This document shows, piece by piece, positions 1-58,582 of a stretch of DNA of 58,582 nucleotides; within the stretch, counting starts at the first letter, position 1, and each line of letters opens with the position of its first letter. A program made the translations under genes and the position numbers. The DNA comes from a virus. Location: the IMG/VR virus record IMGVR_UViG_3300032828_000001, positions 1-58,582 of that record; one strand, written 5' to 3'. The notes beneath the pieces were generated by a model, which saw nothing but the letters and a program-made list of their open reading frames with translations, was not told where the DNA came from and searched no databases.

Positions 1-99
1 CGAGGGGGCGGTGTTGAGGCTCCCGACCCCATTGGAATCGCCGTAGACGACGGTGGCGCCCGCCATCTGGAGGGTGCCGGGGGCGTTGACGGTGACGCC
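1..99. repeat. Second copy of 57194-57292 at the contig start
   Basis: Bases 1-99 are identical to 57194-57292, while 84-210 are identical to 58456-58582. The two matches share 16 bp (CGTTGACGGTGACGCC at 84-99). The contig start therefore joins two places 1179 bp apart in the fibre gene through a 16-bp repeat. 1179 is a multiple of three, so the join removes exactly 393 codons in frame. Confidence 0.85.
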
Positions 100-480
100 G
101 GCCTTGCCGATCGCGATCGACGTTGCGTTCGTCCCACCGATCGTGAGCGCGCCCGCCGCCGCCGTGTCGTGATTCGGCGAGTAGAAATAGTTCACCGCCG
201 CGAGCGTGTTCGCGTGCAGCGTTCCCGCGTTGTCGAGCCAGGCGTATTCGGCACCGCCAATCTGGAACGAGATCTTCGTTCCTTCGGTCTCGACCACTAG
301 GAAAGTGTTCGTTCCGTCATACGTGATCCCGGTCGTCGTCGTCGGCGCGGTGAGTGACGTGGTGGTCTTCTGCGCGTAGAAGCCGCCCCCGACGAGCACC
401 TCCGGCGTCTGGTAGTTCGTCGGCTGCGCGTACTCGTAGGTCGCGTTGTGAACGAGCGGAAAAACCGGAACGAGCGCCAC
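1..480 (-). CDS. Tail fibre protein, N-terminal part (gene continues at 58582..56633 across the circle)
   Basis: Reading from 480 with a GTG start (MALVPVFPLVHNATYEYAQ) preceded by a G-rich Shine-Dalgarno, the frame stays open to the contig edge. Because 84-210 equals 58456-58582, bases 211-480 (90 codons) join in frame to the ORF ending at 56633, giving a fibre of about 739 aa. The Gly/Ala/Thr-rich sequence with NATSIAIGKAGVTVN repeats is typical of host-binding distal fibres. The stop of the preceding fibre gene (497) lies 16 bp upstream. Bases 1-83 follow a different path (matching 57194-57276), so this end of the contig is a recombinant or assembly variant. Confidence 0.8.
   Translation of the reverse strand, partial: MALVPVFPLVHNATYEYAQPTNYQTPEVLVGGGFYAQKTTTSLTAPTTTTGITYDGTNTFLVVETEGTKISFQIGGAEYAWLDNAGTLHANTLAAVNYFYSPNHDTAAAGALTIGGTNATSIAIGKAGVTVNAPGTLQMAGATVVYGDSNGVGSLNTAPS
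84..210. repeat. Terminal overlap with 58456-58582 (circular closure)
   Basis: These 127 bases are identical to the last 127 bases of the window. A 127-bp identical end is what a de Bruijn assembler with k=127 leaves on a circular contig, so this is read as circular closure (unit length about 58,372 bp), not as a packaged terminal repeat. The fibre reading frame continues across the join. Confidence 0.8.
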
Positions 481-28758: not shown

Positions 28759-29889
28759 TCATGCCCGTCCCAAGAGCTTCAAAGCATCGCACCTGGCCAT
28801 GGACGCGCCGCGGTACTCGAAGCTGGCAGTGAATCGTAACACGGACCGCGAACTTTTCCGCCTTGCGGCGAATTTGCCGCCGTCCCCCGGTCGGTGTTTG
28901 GGTGCTGTCACGCACAGCCAGTCACGGGAGCGAATGGCCCCCGCTATCACCGCGGGGTGCCCGCTGTTGAGAAAAACGCGATAGCCCAGACCGGCCCACA
29001 TGCTGGCGAGGTAGTCGCTAACCGCGTTTCCGATGCCAACGCCCTGGAAATCGGGCAAACAGACCGAGCGATGGACGCGCATCGCCGGTCGCGCGTCCAC
29101 GAGCTTTCCGACGAAATTCAGATAGGCGTGAAACGCCGCGGGCCGGTCGCCCAGGAACGCCACGAAGCAGGTAGCGGTACGGTGGAGGTCCGCGCTCAGA
29201 TAGTGATGCTTCTTGAACATAGCCCAAGACGAAGCCGGAACCCGCGCAATGGTGAGCGAGATCGGGGGGCGTCCTTGAAGTGACCTCCAACTGAATTTGT
29301 TCACTGCGGGCTCATAGACCCAGTCCGGATCCAGCCAGTCTTGGATGTCATAATGACAGCTCACCGCGATGAATCGGGCGCCGCGCCTGCGCACTGTCTT
29401 TGCTACGGCGGCGCTCCCTATCTGCGCGACCGTGCGGTCGACGACGGAGGTGAACTCGTCGATCACGGACAACTCCGGGTTCTCTGCTAGTGTGCGCGCG
29501 ATGCTGGCCCGGAACTGCTCGCCGTTCGAGAGCACGCGAAACGGGCGCAGCCAAGAGGGCGGCGAAGAAAACCCCACCGAGGAGAGCAAAAGGGCAATCT
29601 CCTTTATGCTTATACCTTCGGGAAATGCATCTAAGAGTGATCGATCCTCGGGCCACTCGTGACCGCCCACGACGTGGTCGCCAAAGAGCTCGCGCGCGAT
29701 GGTGCTCTTCCCGCACCCGGACGGTCCGACAATGAGTCCTATCGACCAAGGGCGCTCGTCGAGCGGCAGAGCAACGTCCCAAGTGAGCTCGCTTCGCTCG
29801 CTGGGTGGCACATCGAACATGCCTTGCAGTTGCAGAACCCGCGGAGATGCAACGATTTGGGACGCCCTTACGATATGAGCGCTCGGCAC
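28759..29889 (-). CDS. ABC-type ATPase fused to a GNAT (Mom-like) acyltransferase domain
   Basis: 376 aa. Residues 45-200 are an ABC ATPase: Walker A GPSGCGKST at 55-63, signature LSNGEQFR at 120-127, Walker B LSVIDEFTS at 140-148 and a switch His in SCHYD. Residues about 210-360 read as a GNAT fold (HHYLSADLHRTATCFVAFLG; acyl-CoA loop LPDFQGVGIGNAVSDYL). This architecture matches COG2401 (ABC ATPase plus acetyltransferase). Mom of phage Mu is a GNAT-fold DNA-modifying enzyme, so with the ParB-like and glycosyltransferase neighbours a DNA-modification role is inferred. It overlaps the ParB-like gene by 22 bp. Confidence 0.85.
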   Translation of the reverse strand: MPSAHIVRASQIVASPRVLQLQGMFDVPPSERSELTWDVALPLDERPWSIGLIVGPSGCGKSTIARELFGDHVVGGHEWPEDRSLLDAFPEGISIKEIALLLSSVGFSSPPSWLRPFRVLSNGEQFRASIARTLAENPELSVIDEFTSVVDRTVAQIGSAAVAKTVRRRGARFIAVSCHYDIQDWLDPDWVYEPAVNKFSWRSLQGRPPISLTIARVPASSWAMFKKHHYLSADLHRTATCFVAFLGDRPAAFHAYLNFVGKLVDARPAMRVHRSVCLPDFQGVGIGNAVSDYLASMWAGLGYRVFLNSGHPAVIAGAIRSRDWLCVTAPKHRPGDGGKFAARRKSSRSVLRFTASFEYRGASMARCDALKLLGRA

Positions 29890-30443
29890 GTCCGCCCCTC
29901 CGCGGTGAGCCGTTCCAACAGCTCGGTCTGTTCTGCCTCGGTTTCACAAATGACGATGATCTCGAAGTGGTCTGTTATCTCCGCACCCTCAGTGTCCTCG
30001 TCCACCGGCTTCTCTTTGCGGAGCTTATCTAAGAGTGCGTTTATCCCAGCGTCGTCGGTGGCGACGTCTTCAAGAAGGGCCTGAAGAGCCTCCTCGTCGT
30101 GCCGCGCCATCGCGGTGATCGGGTCAAGCACCGCGAGCGCGAGCCGCTCCTCTTCCTCGGACAGCTCAACTTGGGTCACCGGAATGGTCGCGAGCCCGGC
30201 GCGGATTGCCTCTTCTATCCGGGCGTGACCGTCGATGACGTGACCCGTGGTGTTGTTCACGACGACTGTCTTTACCCACCCGAGTTCCTTAATCGACCCC
30301 CTAAGCGCGTCCATCTGCGCGGCCGGGTGGCGCCGAAAGTTCTTCGGGTTCGCAACAAGCTCGCGCGGGGCGGCCTCCCCGTGGCCGACGATGCGCGAGC
30401 GTATGAGCGTTGCTGCCTCGGCCGCCGCTTTCTTCCTCGCCAT
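29868..30443 (-). CDS. ParB/Srx-fold protein
   Basis: 191 aa from ATG at 30443. The N-terminal half has the ParB signature: NPKNFRRHPAAQMDALRGSI, ELGWVKTVVVNNTTGHVIDG and HARIEEAIRAGLATIPVTQ, with the GHVIDGHAR box. The C-terminal half is acidic and helical. Phage ParB-fold proteins act as nucleases or as partners in base-modification systems. It overlaps the ATPase-GNAT gene, so the two are translationally coupled. Chromosome partition is unlikely, because no ParA is present. Confidence 0.87.
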   Translation of the reverse strand: MARKKAAAEAATLIRSRIVGHGEAAPRELVANPKNFRRHPAAQMDALRGSIKELGWVKTVVVNNTTGHVIDGHARIEEAIRAGLATIPVTQVELSEEEERLALAVLDPITAMARHDEEALQALLEDVATDDAGINALLDKLRKEKPVDEDTEGAEITDHFEIIVICETEAEQTELLERLTAEGRTCRALIS

Positions 30444-30454
30444 GTGTACGCCCC

Positions 30455-31429
30455 TCACTCGAAGTCGATCGAGTCCTCGTGTCTGCACCTAAAGTAGTCG
30501 CGCAGATCGTTCCGCATGCGGATGCCCTGGTCCGAGAAAATGAGCAACCCCTGCGCGTCGTGCTTCACGTCGACGAGCGGATCGTACCGGTGCTTTTCGA
30601 GTATCTTCCACCGGTCGATGTACCGCCGGTCAACCTTCTTTCCGTGCCAATGGTGTAACAGCGTCCCCGGCACATAGCCAAGATTCTGCCGGATGTGGCG
30701 CGTCGCCCGGTCCTGCCAGCGGTAGACCTCGTCGTGGTAGTGCGGGTGGAGCGTCGCCGGCACCGAGTAGTGGGCCATTCCGAGTAGCGCGAGTGCCATG
30801 TGGTGGTCGCCCGCGCCCAGGATCGCGTGCTCCATGAGTCCGCCGAGGTCGTCGTAAGCCTCGCGTCGCATGGCCCACGCATACCCGGGGTGACGGAAGA
30901 CGCCCACCGGCGCGTTCATCCCGGTGTACACATCCCGTGTCCACTTGATGGGCAGCCCGTGCGCGTGCGAGTAGCCGAACCCGTCGTAGACCCGGAACGA
31001 CTCGCCCCGCGGCCCTAAGTCAACCGCGGTCTGGAAGAGCTGGACGATCGCGAAATGTTGCAGCTGGTGAATGGTCTCGACCGCCCAATCGCGGTTGATT
31101 AGTTCCACGTCGGCATCGATCCACGCCACATACTGCCAGTCGCTAGGCAGCCGGCGCACGCCGATGTTGACGAGGTTCTCTTTGAGCCACAGCTCGTCCG
31201 TCTGCCGCAGCTGCACATGGTCGAAGTCCTCCGCCTCGGTCACCTCGTAATCGCGGGCGCCGAACGCGGCTTCCACAATGTGCAGGTTGACGCGGTCGCG
31301 GCGCATCCGGGCCGCAAACTCCTGAAAGAGGCGCAGGCGTGAGTTAAACCGCAACGGGTTGTTGATCACCGCGATGACGTGCAGTTGATTCGGCGTGAAG
31401 GACGGTTTCACTTGCGGTCCAGTCTGCAC
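30455..31429 (-). CDS. Glycosyltransferase, GT-A fold
   Basis: 324 aa. N-terminal Rossmann-like start (LHVIAVINNPLRFNSRLRLF), then YVAWIDADVELINRDW with the metal-binding DAD at 105-107, a GYAWAMRREAYDDLGGLMEH acceptor region and an AILGAGDHHMALAL motif, all as in GT2-like enzymes. The 3' end is 12 bp before the ParB-like gene. Substrate could be modified phage DNA bases or a cell-surface glycan; the operon favours DNA. Confidence 0.8.
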   Translation of the reverse strand: MQTGPQVKPSFTPNQLHVIAVINNPLRFNSRLRLFQEFAARMRRDRVNLHIVEAAFGARDYEVTEAEDFDHVQLRQTDELWLKENLVNIGVRRLPSDWQYVAWIDADVELINRDWAVETIHQLQHFAIVQLFQTAVDLGPRGESFRVYDGFGYSHAHGLPIKWTRDVYTGMNAPVGVFRHPGYAWAMRREAYDDLGGLMEHAILGAGDHHMALALLGMAHYSVPATLHPHYHDEVYRWQDRATRHIRQNLGYVPGTLLHHWHGKKVDRRYIDRWKILEKHRYDPLVDVKHDAQGLLIFSDQGIRMRNDLRDYFRCRHEDSIDFE

Positions 31430-41639: not shown

Positions 41640-41649
41640 GGGGTGAACA
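41640..41649 (+). promoter_or_regulatory. Arm-type repeat GGGGTGAACA (copy 1)
   Basis: Copy of a 10-bp repeat that also occurs at 41715-41734 (as a 20-bp palindrome), 41984-41993 and 41996-42005, on both sides of the attP core. Repeats flanking an integrase core site on both sides are the arm-type binding sites of tyrosine integrases. Confidence 0.6.
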
Positions 41650-41714
41650 CTGCGGCCCCTCTTGATGTGACAGGCAGAAAACCACATCGCCAGGCCCATG
41701 TGAAGCATCATTTT

Positions 41715-41734
41715 TGTTCACCCCGGGGTGAACA
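41715..41734. promoter_or_regulatory. 20-bp perfect palindrome TGTTCACCCCGGGGTGAACA (arm-type or operator site)
   Basis: Two inverted copies of GGGGTGAACA meeting head to head. It lies between the integrase start (41490) and the attP core (41860), so it may bind integrase or excisionase, or regulate int transcription. Confidence 0.65.
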
Positions 41735-41859
41735 CTGGGGAAACCTTCACAAATAGCGTTGATCCGCGTCAAACCGCGACACGGAAAAACGGTCCCAAGT
41801 ATAAGCGGTTACGCGCTCTGGCGCGTTTTGTCGCGGTACGCGTTGTGCGCGCAATATTC

Positions 41860-41904
<45 letters not shown>

Positions 41905-41907
41905 CAA

Positions 41908-41958
41908 AAGGCCGCGATGTTGTTCGGGAAACTCCGACACATCGCGGCCTTCTTTTTT
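41908..41958 (+). terminator. Intrinsic terminator beside attP
   Basis: 13-bp stem AAGGCCGCGATGT (41908-41920) with ACATCGCGGCCTT (41939-41951), followed by CTTTTTT. It directly follows the tRNA 3' end and is probably the terminator of the host tRNA gene carried with attP, or serves transcription entering from the tRNA. Confidence 0.85.
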
Positions 41959-41983
41959 ACGCAGAGAGCGCGGGGGGCGGTTT

Positions 41984-42005
41984 GGGGTGAACAACGGGGT
42001 GAACA
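41984..42005 (+). promoter_or_regulatory. Arm-type repeats GGGGTGAACA (copies 3 and 4, 12 bp apart)
   Basis: Two exact copies of the 10-bp repeat spaced by 12 bp, on the other side of the attP core from copies at 41640 and 41715-41734. A related GGGGCGAACA is near 42067. Together they form a two-armed attP. Confidence 0.6.
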
Positions 42006-44600: not shown

Positions 44601-44910
44601 CTATGGCTCCTGTGCGGGATCCTGTATCCGTCCCGCCGCCTCGAGAATGTCCAACACTTCGCGTGAACGCGTGCGTCCGTTTAGTTCCGTCCCGGGGATC
44701 TCGATCTGCGAGCCTATGTGGCCTTTGAGCCGCAGGCGCCACCCGCCCGATCGCATCGGCGATGACTTTCCGCTCGGCCCGGAACATCGCGCGCACCGCA
44801 TGCGCCTTCGAGTCGAGGTCGTCTGCCTCGTCGAGCAGCCGCTCGAGCTCCGCCGACATCTCTGCGTGCGGATCGACGTCCGGCTGTGGCTGTAGCGTGG
44901 CACGCGCCAT
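44601..44910 (-). CDS. Coiled-coil protein, apparently frameshifted
   Basis: Starts at ATG 44910 (MARATLQPQPDVDPHAEMSA, LERLLDEADDLDSKAHAVRA) in one frame, then coding character moves to another frame (WRLRLKGHIGSQIEIPGTEL, REVLDILEAAGRIQDPAQEP) ending at 44601. The length (310 nt) is not divisible by three, so a one-base indel, or two overlapping genes (second from ATG 44756), must be assumed. Together they would give a protein of about 103 aa. Confidence 0.5.
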
Positions 44911-45039
44911 CGTGCGACCTCCCTTGGTTTGCGCAAAGTGAACCCCGATCCGGCCCGGCCGGCGGTCGGCCCGCAAGGTGCGGGCGCGCCTTCCGCGCCG
45001 CGCACCTCCGCCGCACCGCTGGCGACCTAGCTATTTCGT

Positions 45040-45053
45040 GGGGGGGGGGGGGG
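45040..45053. repeat. Poly-G tract (14 G)
   Basis: Fourteen consecutive G on the plus strand in the divergent region between the minus-strand gene starting at 44910 and the plus-strand replication operon. Length may be unstable in the population; it could affect promoter spacing. Confidence 0.7.
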
Positions 45054-45235
45054 TAGGTGCTTGGGCCGGTGCGACAGCGAGACCATTCGCGTGTGGCTGT
45101 CGAGCGGGCGGGCGGCGGCATCAAGAGTGCCCATGGTAGGCGACCGACCGCAGCGCGCAAAGGCTCGCATTGGGTTGGGGCCCTATTGCGGCGGATTGGC
45201 GGCGCGCGAGCGCGGCACATCTTGACGATGCGTGA
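45054..45235. other. Region upstream of the replication operon
   Basis: 182 bp without a convincing gene (an open frame on the plus strand is Arg/Gly-rich with no ribosome-binding site). It must hold the divergent promoters for 44910 (minus) and 45236/45445 (plus), but no clear -35/-10 pair stands out. Confidence 0.4.
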
Positions 45236-45385
45236 ATGCCAATTACCGCATTGAACAATGCCCGCAAGGCGAAACGCGCGCCCTGCCCGAAGTGCGGGCA
45301 TAACGCGGGCGGTCATACGCGCGCTTATTCACGCGCCCGGCCACATGATCACACCGCCACTCACAACACCGCCGGGGCGGTTTGA
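45236..45385 (+). CDS. Possible small zinc-knuckle peptide
   Basis: 49 aa from ATG at 45236: RKAKRAPCPKCGHNAGGHTR, then RPHDHTATHNT. The CPKCG pair with downstream His residues suggests a metal site. No clear Shine-Dalgarno, so it may not be expressed. It ends just before the initiator gene. Confidence 0.4.
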   Translation: MPITALNNARKAKRAPCPKCGHNAGGHTRAYSRARPHDHTATHNTAGAV

Positions 45386-45444
45386 CATACCCGATGTGCA
45401 GGGTGTTTGCTCCGCCGCTTTCCCGTCAATCGAAAGGTAACCCG

Positions 45445-46449
45445 ATGCGGAAGCAAAAAGAACGTCGGCGCTCACGCGGCTCGTTCATTGTCCACCCGCG
45501 AGCGCTCATTCGAGACGCGGCGCTCTGCCTCACGGAAGAGCAACGCGCCCTCATGTGGAAACTCATCGACGAGTGTACCTGGCAACCCGGATGGCAGCTG
45601 TCGACGCGAACCGGGGAGGAAGTGTGGCTGGATGCGGGCGAAACTTTCTTCGGCCTCAAGTCGTTTGCGCGGCGCCACCGGTGCGAGATCTGGGTGGTCC
45701 GCCGTTTTCGCGACCGCCTACTAAACCTTCACTGGCTGTCACTACGGACGCCCCGCGCGGGCGGCACCGCACAGATCACCCCGGCGCTTACCCCCCCGCT
45801 CACCCCCCAGATTCGGGGCGTCTCGGTTCTAAGATGGGGACGACACAGGGATATTATTTGGCCAAACGGGGAACCCAATCGCGGGGCGCTCACCCCCCCG
45901 CTCACCCCCCCGCTCACCCAATCGCTCACCGTTCTTACAAGTAACAATAAACAAGATCAAACAAGGGGGGGGGGCGCGCACGCGCAAGCGGTCGCGCCCA
46001 CGCGACCGCCGCTCGTGCTCGTCGACCTCCCGCCGCAGCTGTCGTTCCTTCCGCCCCCACCCCCCGTAGCGCCGCCGTCCGAGGCGGTGCGGCAGGTGCT
46101 CGCGGCATGGGGGGCGGTCCACGCCGAAATGCGCGGGGGCGCCGCGTATGTGCCCGGCGCGGCGGACGAAGGGCGCGACCGCGTCGCCGCCGAACGGCTC
46201 GCGCTGCGATTCCTTGGCATCGAAAACCAGCTCGACGATCGCATGCGGCGCGCCCTGGCGAGCACGCACTGGCCGCGCGTTAGCACGCTGTGGGAATTCG
46301 ATCGGTTCGCGGCACAGTTCGCGCCTTCGCCCGAGGAGGTGCGGGAGCAGAAAGTTGAAGCGAGGCGGGCGCGAGAGGAGCAGCGACGGCGCGAGGCGTC
46401 CGAGCAATTGCGCCAAGAGGCGCTGGCAAATCGCGGCAATGAAGGCTGA
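45445..46449 (+). CDS. Replication initiator (lambda O-like, with internal origin)
   Basis: 334 aa from ATG at 45445 (SD AAAGG; the upstream frame adds 21 residues without a site). Residues 1-110 read as a winged-helix DNA-binding domain (FIVHPRALIRDAALCLTEEQ, ALMWKLIDECTW, GLKSFARRHRCEIWVVRRFR). The middle is a Thr/Pro repeat region encoded by the iterons (45785-45930). C-terminal helices (SEAVRQVLAAWGAVHAEMRG; charged coiled end). Architecture and location fit an origin-binding protein that loads a helicase. Confidence 0.72.
   Translation: MRKQKERRRSRGSFIVHPRALIRDAALCLTEEQRALMWKLIDECTWQPGWQLSTRTGEEVWLDAGETFFGLKSFARRHRCEIWVVRRFRDRLLNLHWLSLRTPRAGGTAQITPALTPPLTPQIRGVSVLRWGRHRDIIWPNGEPNRGALTPPLTPPLTQSLTVLTSNNKQDQTRGGGAHAQAVAPTRPPLVLVDLPPQLSFLPPPPPVAPPSEAVRQVLAAWGAVHAEMRGGAAYVPGAADEGRDRVAAERLALRFLGIENQLDDRMRRALASTHWPRVSTLWEFDRFAAQFAPSPEEVREQKVEARRAREEQRRREASEQLRQEALANRGNEG
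45785..45965 (+). other. ori: Putative replication origin: 12-bp iterons plus AT-rich unwinding stretch
   Basis: Copies of CGCTCACCCCCC (one CGCTTACC variant) start at 45785, 45797, 45887, 45899, 45911 and 45923, in register at 12 bp inside each cluster. They are followed at 45931-45964 by a stretch of about 26% GC (9 of 34), exceptional in this GC-rich genome, and by a 10-G run. An AT-rich ATATTATTT also lies at 45851-45859 between the clusters. Iterons next to an AT-rich region inside an initiator gene is the lambda O arrangement. Confidence 0.72.
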
Positions 46450-46556
46450 GACGGGCCAATCCGGCACCGGGCGCCTATCCGCCTGGCACCTCACCCGCGC
46501 CCCGCTATCTACCCCCGGACATGCACTACACAAGCGGGGCCCCTATCGTAGGGGGC

Positions 46557-47369
46557 ATGGCCAAGGCGATGGGGTCGGCGACGATATGGCTCGGCCGGGT
46601 CGCGATCCCGGTCCGGGTCTATCCGGCGATCCTCGACCCCCCGCGGGTCGCGTTTCATTACCTGCACTGGGCGTGCAATGGGCGCGTTCGGCAAGAGTAC
46701 CATTGCCCGCGCTGCGAGGAGAGGACGGCGCCGGCCGCGCTCCCACGCGATGCCCTGCACGCGGGCGTCGAGGTCGGCAAAGACCAATACGTCACGTTCA
46801 GTAAAGAGGAGCGGCAAGCGCTCACCGAGGAGCCGGATCCGGCGATCGAGATAGGCGAGTGCGTGCCGGCCGAGTCGATCGATCCCATCCATTGGGCGCG
46901 CCCGCACTACCTCGGGCCGGAACCGGGGCACGGGGACGGCTATGCACTGTTAGTCGACGCGCTCCATTTGTCCGGCCGCGTCGGCCTCGCGCACTGGCGC
47001 ACCCGCGGCGCGGATCTGTTCGTCGCGGTGCGCGAATCCGGGCGCCGGCTCGTCGTGCAGGAGCTCTTGCGCGCGGAAGAGGTGCGGCCCATTGCCGAGA
47101 TAGAGGCACCGCCCGCGCCTGCGGCCGGGCTCGCGAAACTCGGCCTCGCCCTCGTCACCCGGTACGCGGGCACGTTCGATCCGGCCGCATATCCCGACCG
47201 TGTATATGCACGCACCGTCGAAGCGGTCGAGGCGAAGAGGGCGGGGAAAGAGATCATCGCCGTTCCGGCGCCGGGGCGCGAGGCGCCGCTCCCGCTCGCG
47301 GCGGCGCTCAAAGCAAGCATCGAGGCGGGGAAGCCGCGGGGGGCGAAGACCAAGCGGGGGCGCACGTGA
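46557..47369 (+). CDS. ku: Ku-family DNA end-binding protein
   Basis: 270 aa from ATG at 46557. The bacterial Ku pattern runs throughout: ATIWLGRVAIPVRVYPAI (residues 8-25), a zinc-like HWACNGRVRQEYHCPRCEE, EVGKDQYVTFSKEERQALT (72-90), ECVPAESIDPIHWARPHYLG (101-120), ALLVDALHLSGRVGLAHWRT and RLVVQELLRAEEVRPIAEI. C-terminus is Lys/Arg-rich (KPRGAKTKRG). Ku binds double-strand ends and recruits ligase; no phage ligase is present, so the host LigD may be used. Phage Ku proteins are known from mycobacteriophages Corndog and Omega. Confidence 0.9.
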   Translation: MAKAMGSATIWLGRVAIPVRVYPAILDPPRVAFHYLHWACNGRVRQEYHCPRCEERTAPAALPRDALHAGVEVGKDQYVTFSKEERQALTEEPDPAIEIGECVPAESIDPIHWARPHYLGPEPGHGDGYALLVDALHLSGRVGLAHWRTRGADLFVAVRESGRRLVVQELLRAEEVRPIAEIEAPPAPAAGLAKLGLALVTRYAGTFDPAAYPDRVYARTVEAVEAKRAGKEIIAVPAPGREAPLPLAAALKASIEAGKPRGAKTKRGRT

Positions 47370-56632: not shown

Positions 56633-58582
56633 CTATCCATCTGCGTAAAATGAAATCGTCGACAGATCGAGGTACGCCGTGTTGGTAGGCGGCGCGATAG
56701 CGATGTTGCCGTTGGCATAGACCACTGCCGTCCCAAAAGCATTCGACCCACAGTTGATGGGAAACGACTGTGCATAACCCGGTCGATACCCCGCCACGAG
56801 CTGGTAGCAGTCGGTATTGACCGACCCGCCGCAGATCGCGCCCCGCACATAGACCCGTCCGGTAGGGTCCTTGTAATAGCCGAACGGCGGCCACCCACCC
56901 CCGTAATTCGTCCATGGCGATATGAGCGCGGGCGTGATCCAAGGCGACGATGACGGTTGGTGACAGCCCGAGTTGTAGTTGCCGGTGCCGAAGAGATATG
57001 TGGTCCCTCCCCATGTGCCGCTCTGCTTCGCCCGCGCCATCCATGTGATGCCGTCGTATCCGAGGCAGGCGAACTGGGCCTGATAGCCACTCGCGGTCGG
57101 ATGTTGGATGTTCACTCCGAGCGCGCCGAACTGCTCGTTGTTGTCACGGTAGAAGCAGCTGCGCGGAATGGCGTTCGCGCCGACCCCGCCGACCGAGGGG
57201 GCGGTGTTGAGGCTCCCGACCCCATTGGAATCGCCGTAGACGACGGTGGCGCCCGCCATCTGGAGGGTGCCGGGGGCGTTGACGGTGACGCCCGCCTTGC
57301 CGATGGTGACCGTTGTCGCGTTGGCGCCGGCAATGGCGAGCGTGCTGGTGCCGGCGGGCGTGTCGATTGAGGGCACATAGACCCCGCAATTTGGCCCGCC
57401 AAGGTTGACCGATCCGGTCACTCCCGAAACTCCGATGTTGACGATGCTATTAGGCACGATGTTGACGGTCGCGGCATTTCCCGCGCTGCCGATTGAAAGC
57501 GTTCCACCGCCCGCGGGGGTGTCAACGGTTGAAGTGTGTAGCGTGCCCGGGACGTTCACCACCACGCCCGAACGGCCGAGCGCGATCGACGTCGCGTTGC
57601 CCGCGCCGATGTTGAGCGCTACCGCACTCGCGGTGTCGAGCGAGGGCGTGACCACGTTCGTGCTTGCCGTGACGGTCGCGAAGGACGGCGAGGCGCCCGA
57701 GGCATAGTAGCCGCTCGGATTTGATGCATTGTACGGAGTGAAACCGAGCGCGCCCGTGACGTTACCCGAGGTGAGGGAGACAACGCCCCCCGAGACGGTG
57801 AGGTTCGCACCGACTTTCAGGATCCCTTCCTGCGACGCGGACCCTACCGGGAGTGTTGCGCCGGTAAGATAACCCGGACCGTTCGTGAGCTGCGACAGGT
57901 TCGTGAGTGACTGGTTCGTCCATGCCGTACACCACGCCGACCAGCCGCTTCCGTTGATATTGCTTCGCCACGTCATCGACGGTGGGTTGTCGGTCGAGAT
58001 CCCCCACTCATAGACCCAGTTGCCGGACGTGAGAGCCATGCTCGTGCCGGTGAAGGGCCAGGCAAGCATGGTTCCGTAGCCAAAGGGTGGACTATTGGTT
58101 GTGGAGGTATCCCAGTATTGCCAGCCGTAGGTGGGCGAGTTGATGTTCGCGAGGTGGGGCGCACTGTTGGGTGTGTAGTTGGGTAGCGTAACGGCGGTCC
58201 ACACGCGGCTGCCCGCCTCCTGAAGCTGAACGGCTGCATTCGCGATACCGGTGGACCCTGTGATCGCGAACAGACTGCCGCCTTTGCCGCTGTAGACGTT
58301 GAGGTTCCGATAGTAGGTTCCGGCGCCGTTGTAGCCGTAGTAGTTGATGGCCGTCTCGCCGCTATCACTAGCGTCGGCGCGATTCTCCAGCGAGTTATCG
58401 CGCAGTGTAGCGCGACCAGTGCCCACGATGTTGCCTGCGGTGATACTGCCCGGCACGTTGACGGTGACGCCGGCCTTGCCGATCGCGATCGACGTTGCGT
58501 TCGTCCCACCGATCGTGAGCGCGCCCGCCGCCGCCGTGTCGTGATTCGGCGAGTAGAAATAGTTCACCGCCGCGAGCGTGTT
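56633..58582 (-). CDS. Tail fibre protein, C-terminal part (continues at 480..211 across the circle)
   Basis: 650 codons present here. Three copies of a repeat of the form NATSIAIGKAGVTVNVPG occur; the region also has a lectin-like part (GINNAAVQLQEAGSRVW-type segments near the N-terminal side) and a C-terminal tip (YYKDPTGRVYVRGAICGGSV, then YRPGYAQSFPINCGSNAFGT) resembling GG-rich phage fibre tips. The repeats at 57277 and 58456 are recombination sites for the variant contig end. Confidence 0.85.
   Translation of the reverse strand, partial: NTLAAVNYFYSPNHDTAAAGALTIGGTNATSIAIGKAGVTVNVPGSITAGNIVGTGRATLRDNSLENRADASDSGETAINYYGYNGAGTYYRNLNVYSGKGGSLFAITGSTGIANAAVQLQEAGSRVWTAVTLPNYTPNSAPHLANINSPTYGWQYWDTSTTNSPPFGYGTMLAWPFTGTSMALTSGNWVYEWGISTDNPPSMTWRSNINGSGWSAWCTAWTNQSLTNLSQLTNGPGYLTGATLPVGSASQEGILKVGANLTVSGGVVSLTSGNVTGALGFTPYNASNPSGYYASGASPSFATVTASTNVVTPSLDTASAVALNIGAGNATSIALGRSGVVVNVPGTLHTSTVDTPAGGGTLSIGSAGNAATVNIVPNSIVNIGVSGVTGSVNLGGPNCGVYVPSIDTPAGTSTLAIAGANATTVTIGKAGVTVNAPGTLQMAGATVVYGDSNGVGSLNTAPSVGGVGANAIPRSCFYRDNNEQFGALGVNIQHPTASGYQAQFACLGYDGITWMARAKQSGTWGGTTYLFGTGNYNSGCHQPSSSPWITPALISPWTNYGGGWPPFGYYKDPTGRVYVRGAICGGSVNTDCYQLVAGYRPGYAQSFPINCGSNAFGTAVVYANGNIAIAPPTNTAYLDLSTISFYADG
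58456..58582. repeat. Terminal overlap with 84-210
   Basis: Identical to bases 84-210; see that entry. It lies in the fibre gene and closes the circle. The point where the two paths split is the 16-bp motif CGTTGACGGTGACGCC (58456-58471), which also occurs at 57277-57292. Confidence 0.8.

Follow-up and report, generated by a model that had tools for sequence, protein, structure and literature searches.

Where does this phage begin to replicate its genome, and which of its proteins starts the process? The question was raised by a single gene in IMG/VR virus record IMGVR_UViG_3300032828_000001, whose full 58,582 nucleotides were analysed here and are referred to as the window. The initial annotation had read in that gene an origin made of 12-bp iterons and an AT-rich stretch, lying inside the coding sequence of the initiator itself. 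Our answer, which we hold with a probability of roughly 0.83, is that gene 45445-46449 encodes the phage replication initiator and that the phage origin lies within the coding sequence of this gene. Very probably this is the known arrangement of an intragenic origin, found in lambda and many other phages, in a phage of a GC-rich bacterium. Its own features are the orphan sequence of the protein, the 12-bp length of the units and the possible presence of one iteron cluster inside the wing of the predicted winged helix.

The window carries a contractile-tailed temperate phage with genes for terminase, portal, capsid, sheath, baseplate J and integrase, and it also encodes an AlpA/excisionase-like protein and a PDDEXK exonuclease. 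The gene belongs to the early region, where it is flanked by genes for the integrase and the AlpA-like protein to one side and by Ku to the other, and the ORFs scanned offered no second candidate for the initiator. The gene and its repeats are as follows:

45445-46449, plus strand: candidate initiator gene of 334 aa, an ORF with its ATG at 45445 and AAAGG at 45433-45437, 8 bases upstream.
45773-45808, plus strand: iteron cluster I, read from the sequence as a degenerate AGATCACCCCGG followed by CGCTTACCCCCC and CGCTCACCCCCC.
45887-45934, plus strand: iteron cluster II, which codes for LTPPLTPPLTQSLTV in four 12-bp units and has a TRF score of 67.

All six CGCTYACC units that had been claimed are present, at 45785, 45797, 45887, 45899, 45911 and 45923, with a spacing of exactly 12 bp inside both clusters and 90 bp from 45797 to 45887, and as proposed they encode a tandem LTPP peptide. 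The CCCC tail ascribed to them holds for four of the six (45785, 45797, 45887 and 45899) but not for the last two units of cluster II, where unit 3 reads CCCAAT and unit 4 CCGTTC in its place. To these six we add a seventh, the degenerate unit in register at 45773, and cluster I as a whole codes for ITPALTPPLTP. TRF described 45887-45930 as a repeat of period 12 with 3.7 copies and 90% matches. When tandem periodicity was scored at periods of 7-30 in 194-bp tiles across the whole window (602 overlapping tiles), no tile held a stronger tandem repeat than the iteron array, whose score of 7.17 was reached by only two tiles, both covering the site itself. None of 83 GC-rich control loci had an equally strong array near its own GC minimum.

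Repeats within a coding sequence could also be of use to the protein alone, as a proline/threonine-rich linker grown by polymerase slippage at C7 runs, in which case the DNA repeat would have no role of its own and SNNKQDQT would be a disordered tail. A period of 12 preserves the frame and encodes LTPP, as a repeat at the peptide level would, C7 runs are prone to slippage, and LTPP or VTPP repeats are found in structural phage proteins too. The likeness among the units exceeds what the LTPP peptide needs (P about 1e-4, with synonymous codons drawn from the phage's own codon usage); this excess points to a constraint at the DNA level, in a suggestive way only, as a recent duplication alone could explain it. 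Against a mere linker, however, stand the synonymous codons that units of the two clusters have in common 90 bp apart, the unique GC minimum that adjoins the array and the related initiators described below, and we consider this explanation unlikely. The stretch behind the array, which under an intragenic origin would be the site of melting, is delimited as follows:

45931-45964, plus strand: putative DNA-unwinding element, where GC content is lowest and, over 30-40 bp, the duplex is least stable in the window; it encodes VLTSNNKQDQT.
45965-45974, plus strand: G10 run in the sequence, the boundary of the putative unwinding element.

The earlier description of 34 bp at about 26% GC following the iterons proved accurate (9 G+C in 34, or 26.5%). 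This is the lowest value among all 34-mers of the 58.6 kb, the next lowest having 12 G+C, and by nearest-neighbour energy 45931-45964 is the least stable stretch of the window at 30, 34 and 40 bp. At 50 bp it ranks third and at 60 and 100 bp it is outside the four weakest; since it loses first place from 50 bp upwards, the unwinding element would be a short one. The range of the GC skew over the window was no larger than in block shuffles, 49% of which reached it. No DnaA box was found near the iteron site; lambda-type origins can do without one. Unusual G homopolymer runs occur at 45965-45974, directly 3' of the AT-rich stretch, and at about 45040-45053.

Initiators often autoregulate, and the protein might bind the repeats as an operator, repressing or timing its own transcription, with the origin elsewhere; binding without origin function would be compatible with the data. 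Yet the iteron sites are located 330-490 bp inside the gene, away from a promoter, a search of 44900-46600 for sigma-70-like promoters gave none, and the adjoining least-stable stretch is better suited to melting, all of which makes an operator very unlikely. An intragenic origin remains our reading. The predicted layout of the protein is an N-terminal winged helix, an iteron-coded linker and a C-terminal helical domain:

45475-45849, plus strand: predicted winged helix with an insertion in the wing, from profile alignment and a low-confidence AF2 model.
46080-46446, plus strand: C-terminal helical domain, helices in the AF2 model with high confidence for the last coil only.

By sequence the protein is an orphan. 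Its 334 aa had no match in Pfam, PHROGs, NCBIfam or PDB sequences, and hmmscan gave none to Phage_rep_O (PF04492) even at E 10. Searches for whole-protein homologues in viral and genome contigs, and by tblastn on phages, returned only noise, as did a search of 17 virus records, 18 genomes and 396 genomes from the phylum to which the closest terminase match belongs. A 99.98% identical contig found by its terminase covers the structural half only, and no counterpart of the gene was recognisable in the other relatives identified by terminase. AF2 run without an alignment, on the full protein and on the N-terminal domain, gave low confidence, with a helix-strand-helix order in one model for the predicted winged helix; a Foldseek search with the AF2 model was discarded as meaningless because the model confidence was too low.

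The protein had been called winged-helix-like, a description that only a custom profile supports (E 0.009), with no backing from Pfam, PHROGs, NCBIfam or the structure model. For this profile a consensus of the winged-helix module was written from general knowledge and real members were then retrieved by tblastn, giving 23 diverse phage O/gp18/DnaD-like initiator genes from phages and prophages. The window gene came first among the 386 ORFs of the window with an E-value of 0.0094 (next ORF 2.2), a value that is modest and not blind, since the family was chosen after the protein had been read. With 12 members the profile had already placed it first among the 386 ORFs (E 0.79), and none of the shuffled N-termini attained the profile score of the window protein. 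A separate HTH_36/O-type initiator profile (A2) did not match the window gene. The profile results argue modestly for a distant relationship between the window protein and the gp18/DnaD-like initiator winged helix.

The same profile was used to place cluster I within the fold. When about 700 single deletions were scored against it, the best was that of residues 110-125, QITPALTPPLTPQIRG, which correspond to iteron cluster I, with a small gain from 10.7 to 14.1 bits, and all 25 best deletions fell inside the wing (residues 100-126). Since residues 110-125 are the best deletion, cluster I resembles an insertion in the winged helix, between its last two strands. We propose, tentatively, that the wing loop of the DNA-binding domain predicted to read the iterons is itself encoded in part by cluster I. 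If this is true, a change in a cluster I binding site would also alter the reading head, and the evolution of origin and initiator would be coupled more tightly than in lambda, whose iterons encode a linker.

Relatives of this kind also carry arrays. In 19 members of the gp18/DnaD-like family we compared the 120 bp surrounding the winged-helix end with 591 control tiles from the same loci, and a tandem array at z >= 5.5 was present in 15 of the 19 genes against 0 of the 591 tiles. At z >= 4.5 the number rose to 17 of 19, 14 genes having a period of 11 bp and three a period of 22 bp. Neither period is divisible by three, so that the peptide is not repeated and the repetition is kept in the DNA; by this comparison of sequences, selection in the 11- and 22-bp arrays acts on DNA. 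This counts against the linker explanation, since related initiators hold 11-bp arrays without a peptide repeat at the matching position. Most family arrays start between -17 and +37 from the end of the winged helix, and in many of the genes the GC minimum follows at about +50 to +120; in the window gene the array (z 7.17) starts at about +38 and the GC minimum lies at about +82.

The window gene thus shares with the family the winged-helix profile match, the array near the end of the winged helix and a local GC minimum 3' of the array. Its period of 12 departs from the 11 or 22 of the family, and 12 is also seen in L386, L387 and an Aeromonas gene; an 11- or 22-bp period is a common feature of the family, not a defining one. 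Nor is a neighbouring helicase or helicase-loader gene defining, as several members have one and others are without. With these results the design of an origin inside its initiator gene would come to include an orphan protein of a very GC-rich phage that the usual family models miss. The results also suggest a homology-free rule for finding phage origins: one would look immediately after a winged helix for a short tandem array that adjoins the local GC minimum. As far as the array is concerned, this rule held in the 17 initiator genes above, and nothing comparable was seen in control sequence.

Among the 83 GC-rich control loci, the best combination of array and GC dip was found in L271 and the third best in L046, while the second adjoins an unrelated regulator gene. 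L046 is an actinophage replication initiator upstream of dnaB, and in L271 a winged-helix gene contains GGGGTGACACCA units together with a perfect DnaA box. Both loci had been fetched by an array pattern, so that arrays are expected there; what is informative is that the genes are of initiator type and have the GC minimum next to the array. DNA pattern scans for LT(P/Q) arrays returned mostly low-complexity or structural genes, plus three actinophage initiators. In L271 (10217-10822, minus strand) and L337-L341, small winged-helix genes carry the GGGGTGACACCA units and an AT-rich dip, most of them with the perfect DnaA box TTATCCACA; in the relatives that are 62-65% identical the repeats differ and the AT-rich dip is kept. 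Judged by sequence, the L271-type gene is likely to contain an origin of an element on 16-18 kb contigs.

A Ku homologue lies directly downstream of the candidate initiator at 46521-47369 (Pfam Ku E 8e-27, PHROG Ku-like 5e-25); its only relatives are remote ones in mycobacteriophages. The interval 41640-42005, which separates the integrase gene from the AlpA-like gene, contains five exact TGTTCACCCC repeats in both orientations, where 2.6 would be expected across the window if one mismatch is allowed; they flank a tRNA 3'-end-like segment, GGTTCGAATCC at 41880, that resembles tRNA-Pro, and the region probably represents attP together with arm sites for the integrase. The core TTCACCCC is similar to the iteron core CTCACCCC. 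The two ends of the window (1-210 and 58083-58582) join in contig IMGVR_UViG_3300033158_000005 (L140), which passes from window 58083-58582 directly to window 75 onward at 99.98% identity, in a record classed as linear; since L140 spans the end of the window into its start, the genome is closed or circularly permuted.

Direct repeats might instead mark a partition or incompatibility site. The window has a weak ParB_N-like match at 29871-30488, and some mycobacteriophages have parS direct repeats (PMC7157519). That match, however, falls below the cut-off and belongs to a different module, the ORFs scanned gave no ParA, and a phage with an integrase and an attP-like region need not partition, which leaves this possibility extremely improbable.

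For the intragenic origin that we favour, the steps would be the following. The N-terminal winged helix would bind both iteron clusters at their 12-bp CGCTYACCCCCC units, the bound initiators would wrap the DNA and melt the adjoining 34-bp AT-rich stretch, and the C-terminal domain would then bring in the replicative helicase of the host. We infer recruitment from the host because the ORFs scanned included no phage helicase, loader or polymerase, and they also gave no primase and no helicase or loader gene adjoining the initiator; the role given to the C-terminal domain is taken from lambda O and gp18-type proteins.

How does this locus compare with known systems? Lambda O is the archetype of the intragenic origin, and in lambda O, where the iterons are annotated, as in the window gene they are mid-gene with the AT-rich tract on their 3' side (PMC7466680). 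The likeness to lambda O/ori drawn in the initial annotation stands for the array, the AT dip, the site behind a winged helix and the early region, but the protein is not Phage_rep_O by Pfam, and by sequence it is closer to the gp18/DnaD-like branch than to lambda O. Lambda also differs in having four iterons of about 18 bp, spaced 20-24 bp, against the 12-bp units of the window, and in the gene that follows, which is P (the helicase loader) after O and encodes Ku in the window.

The layout of direct repeats inside the initiator gene is likewise shared with SPP1, TP901-1 and Tuc2009, although these are phages of low-GC Gram-positive hosts. In SPP1, oriL lies inside gene 38, with direct repeats and an AT-rich DUE, as shown experimentally (PMC6316719), and the organizer proteins TP901-1 ORF13 and Tuc2009 ORF16 bind repeats within their own genes, where the origins were located by experiment (PMC8965321). 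Closer in base composition are the RepA-like initiators of actinophages (XFactor, Galadriel and ViaConlectus, and IMG/VR L046, L277 and L300), which are GC-rich and have intragenic 11- or 12-bp arrays. In the annotated initiation genes the period is 12 in XFactor (L333) and Galadriel (L332) and 11 in ViaConlectus (L336). These arrays are TNACCCC-like and some encode LTPx or VTPx, a likeness in the core that is partly due to the search pattern, and the N-terminal sequence of the proteins differs from that of the window protein. In the study of mycobacteriophage RepA no repeats were reported for the phages concerned, and the authors' guess was that the origin is in or just before repA (PMC7157519).

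Finally, the P22-like lambdoid phages L, ST160 and Sf6, with initiators of the gp18 and gp43 type, have like the window a winged helix and an array within about 40 bp of it, all intragenic, and a GC minimum about 80-100 bp on, inside the gene. Phage L gene 18 contains six imprecise 11-bp repeats described as its likely origin (PMC8022706), and the Sf6 record carries a putative rep_origin annotated at the matching place in its initiator gene (gp43). These phages differ in their 11-bp units without a peptide repeat and in an adjoining gene for a DnaB-like helicase, whereas the window has 12-bp units, a peptide repeat, an adjoining Ku gene and an extra cluster that may lie in the wing.
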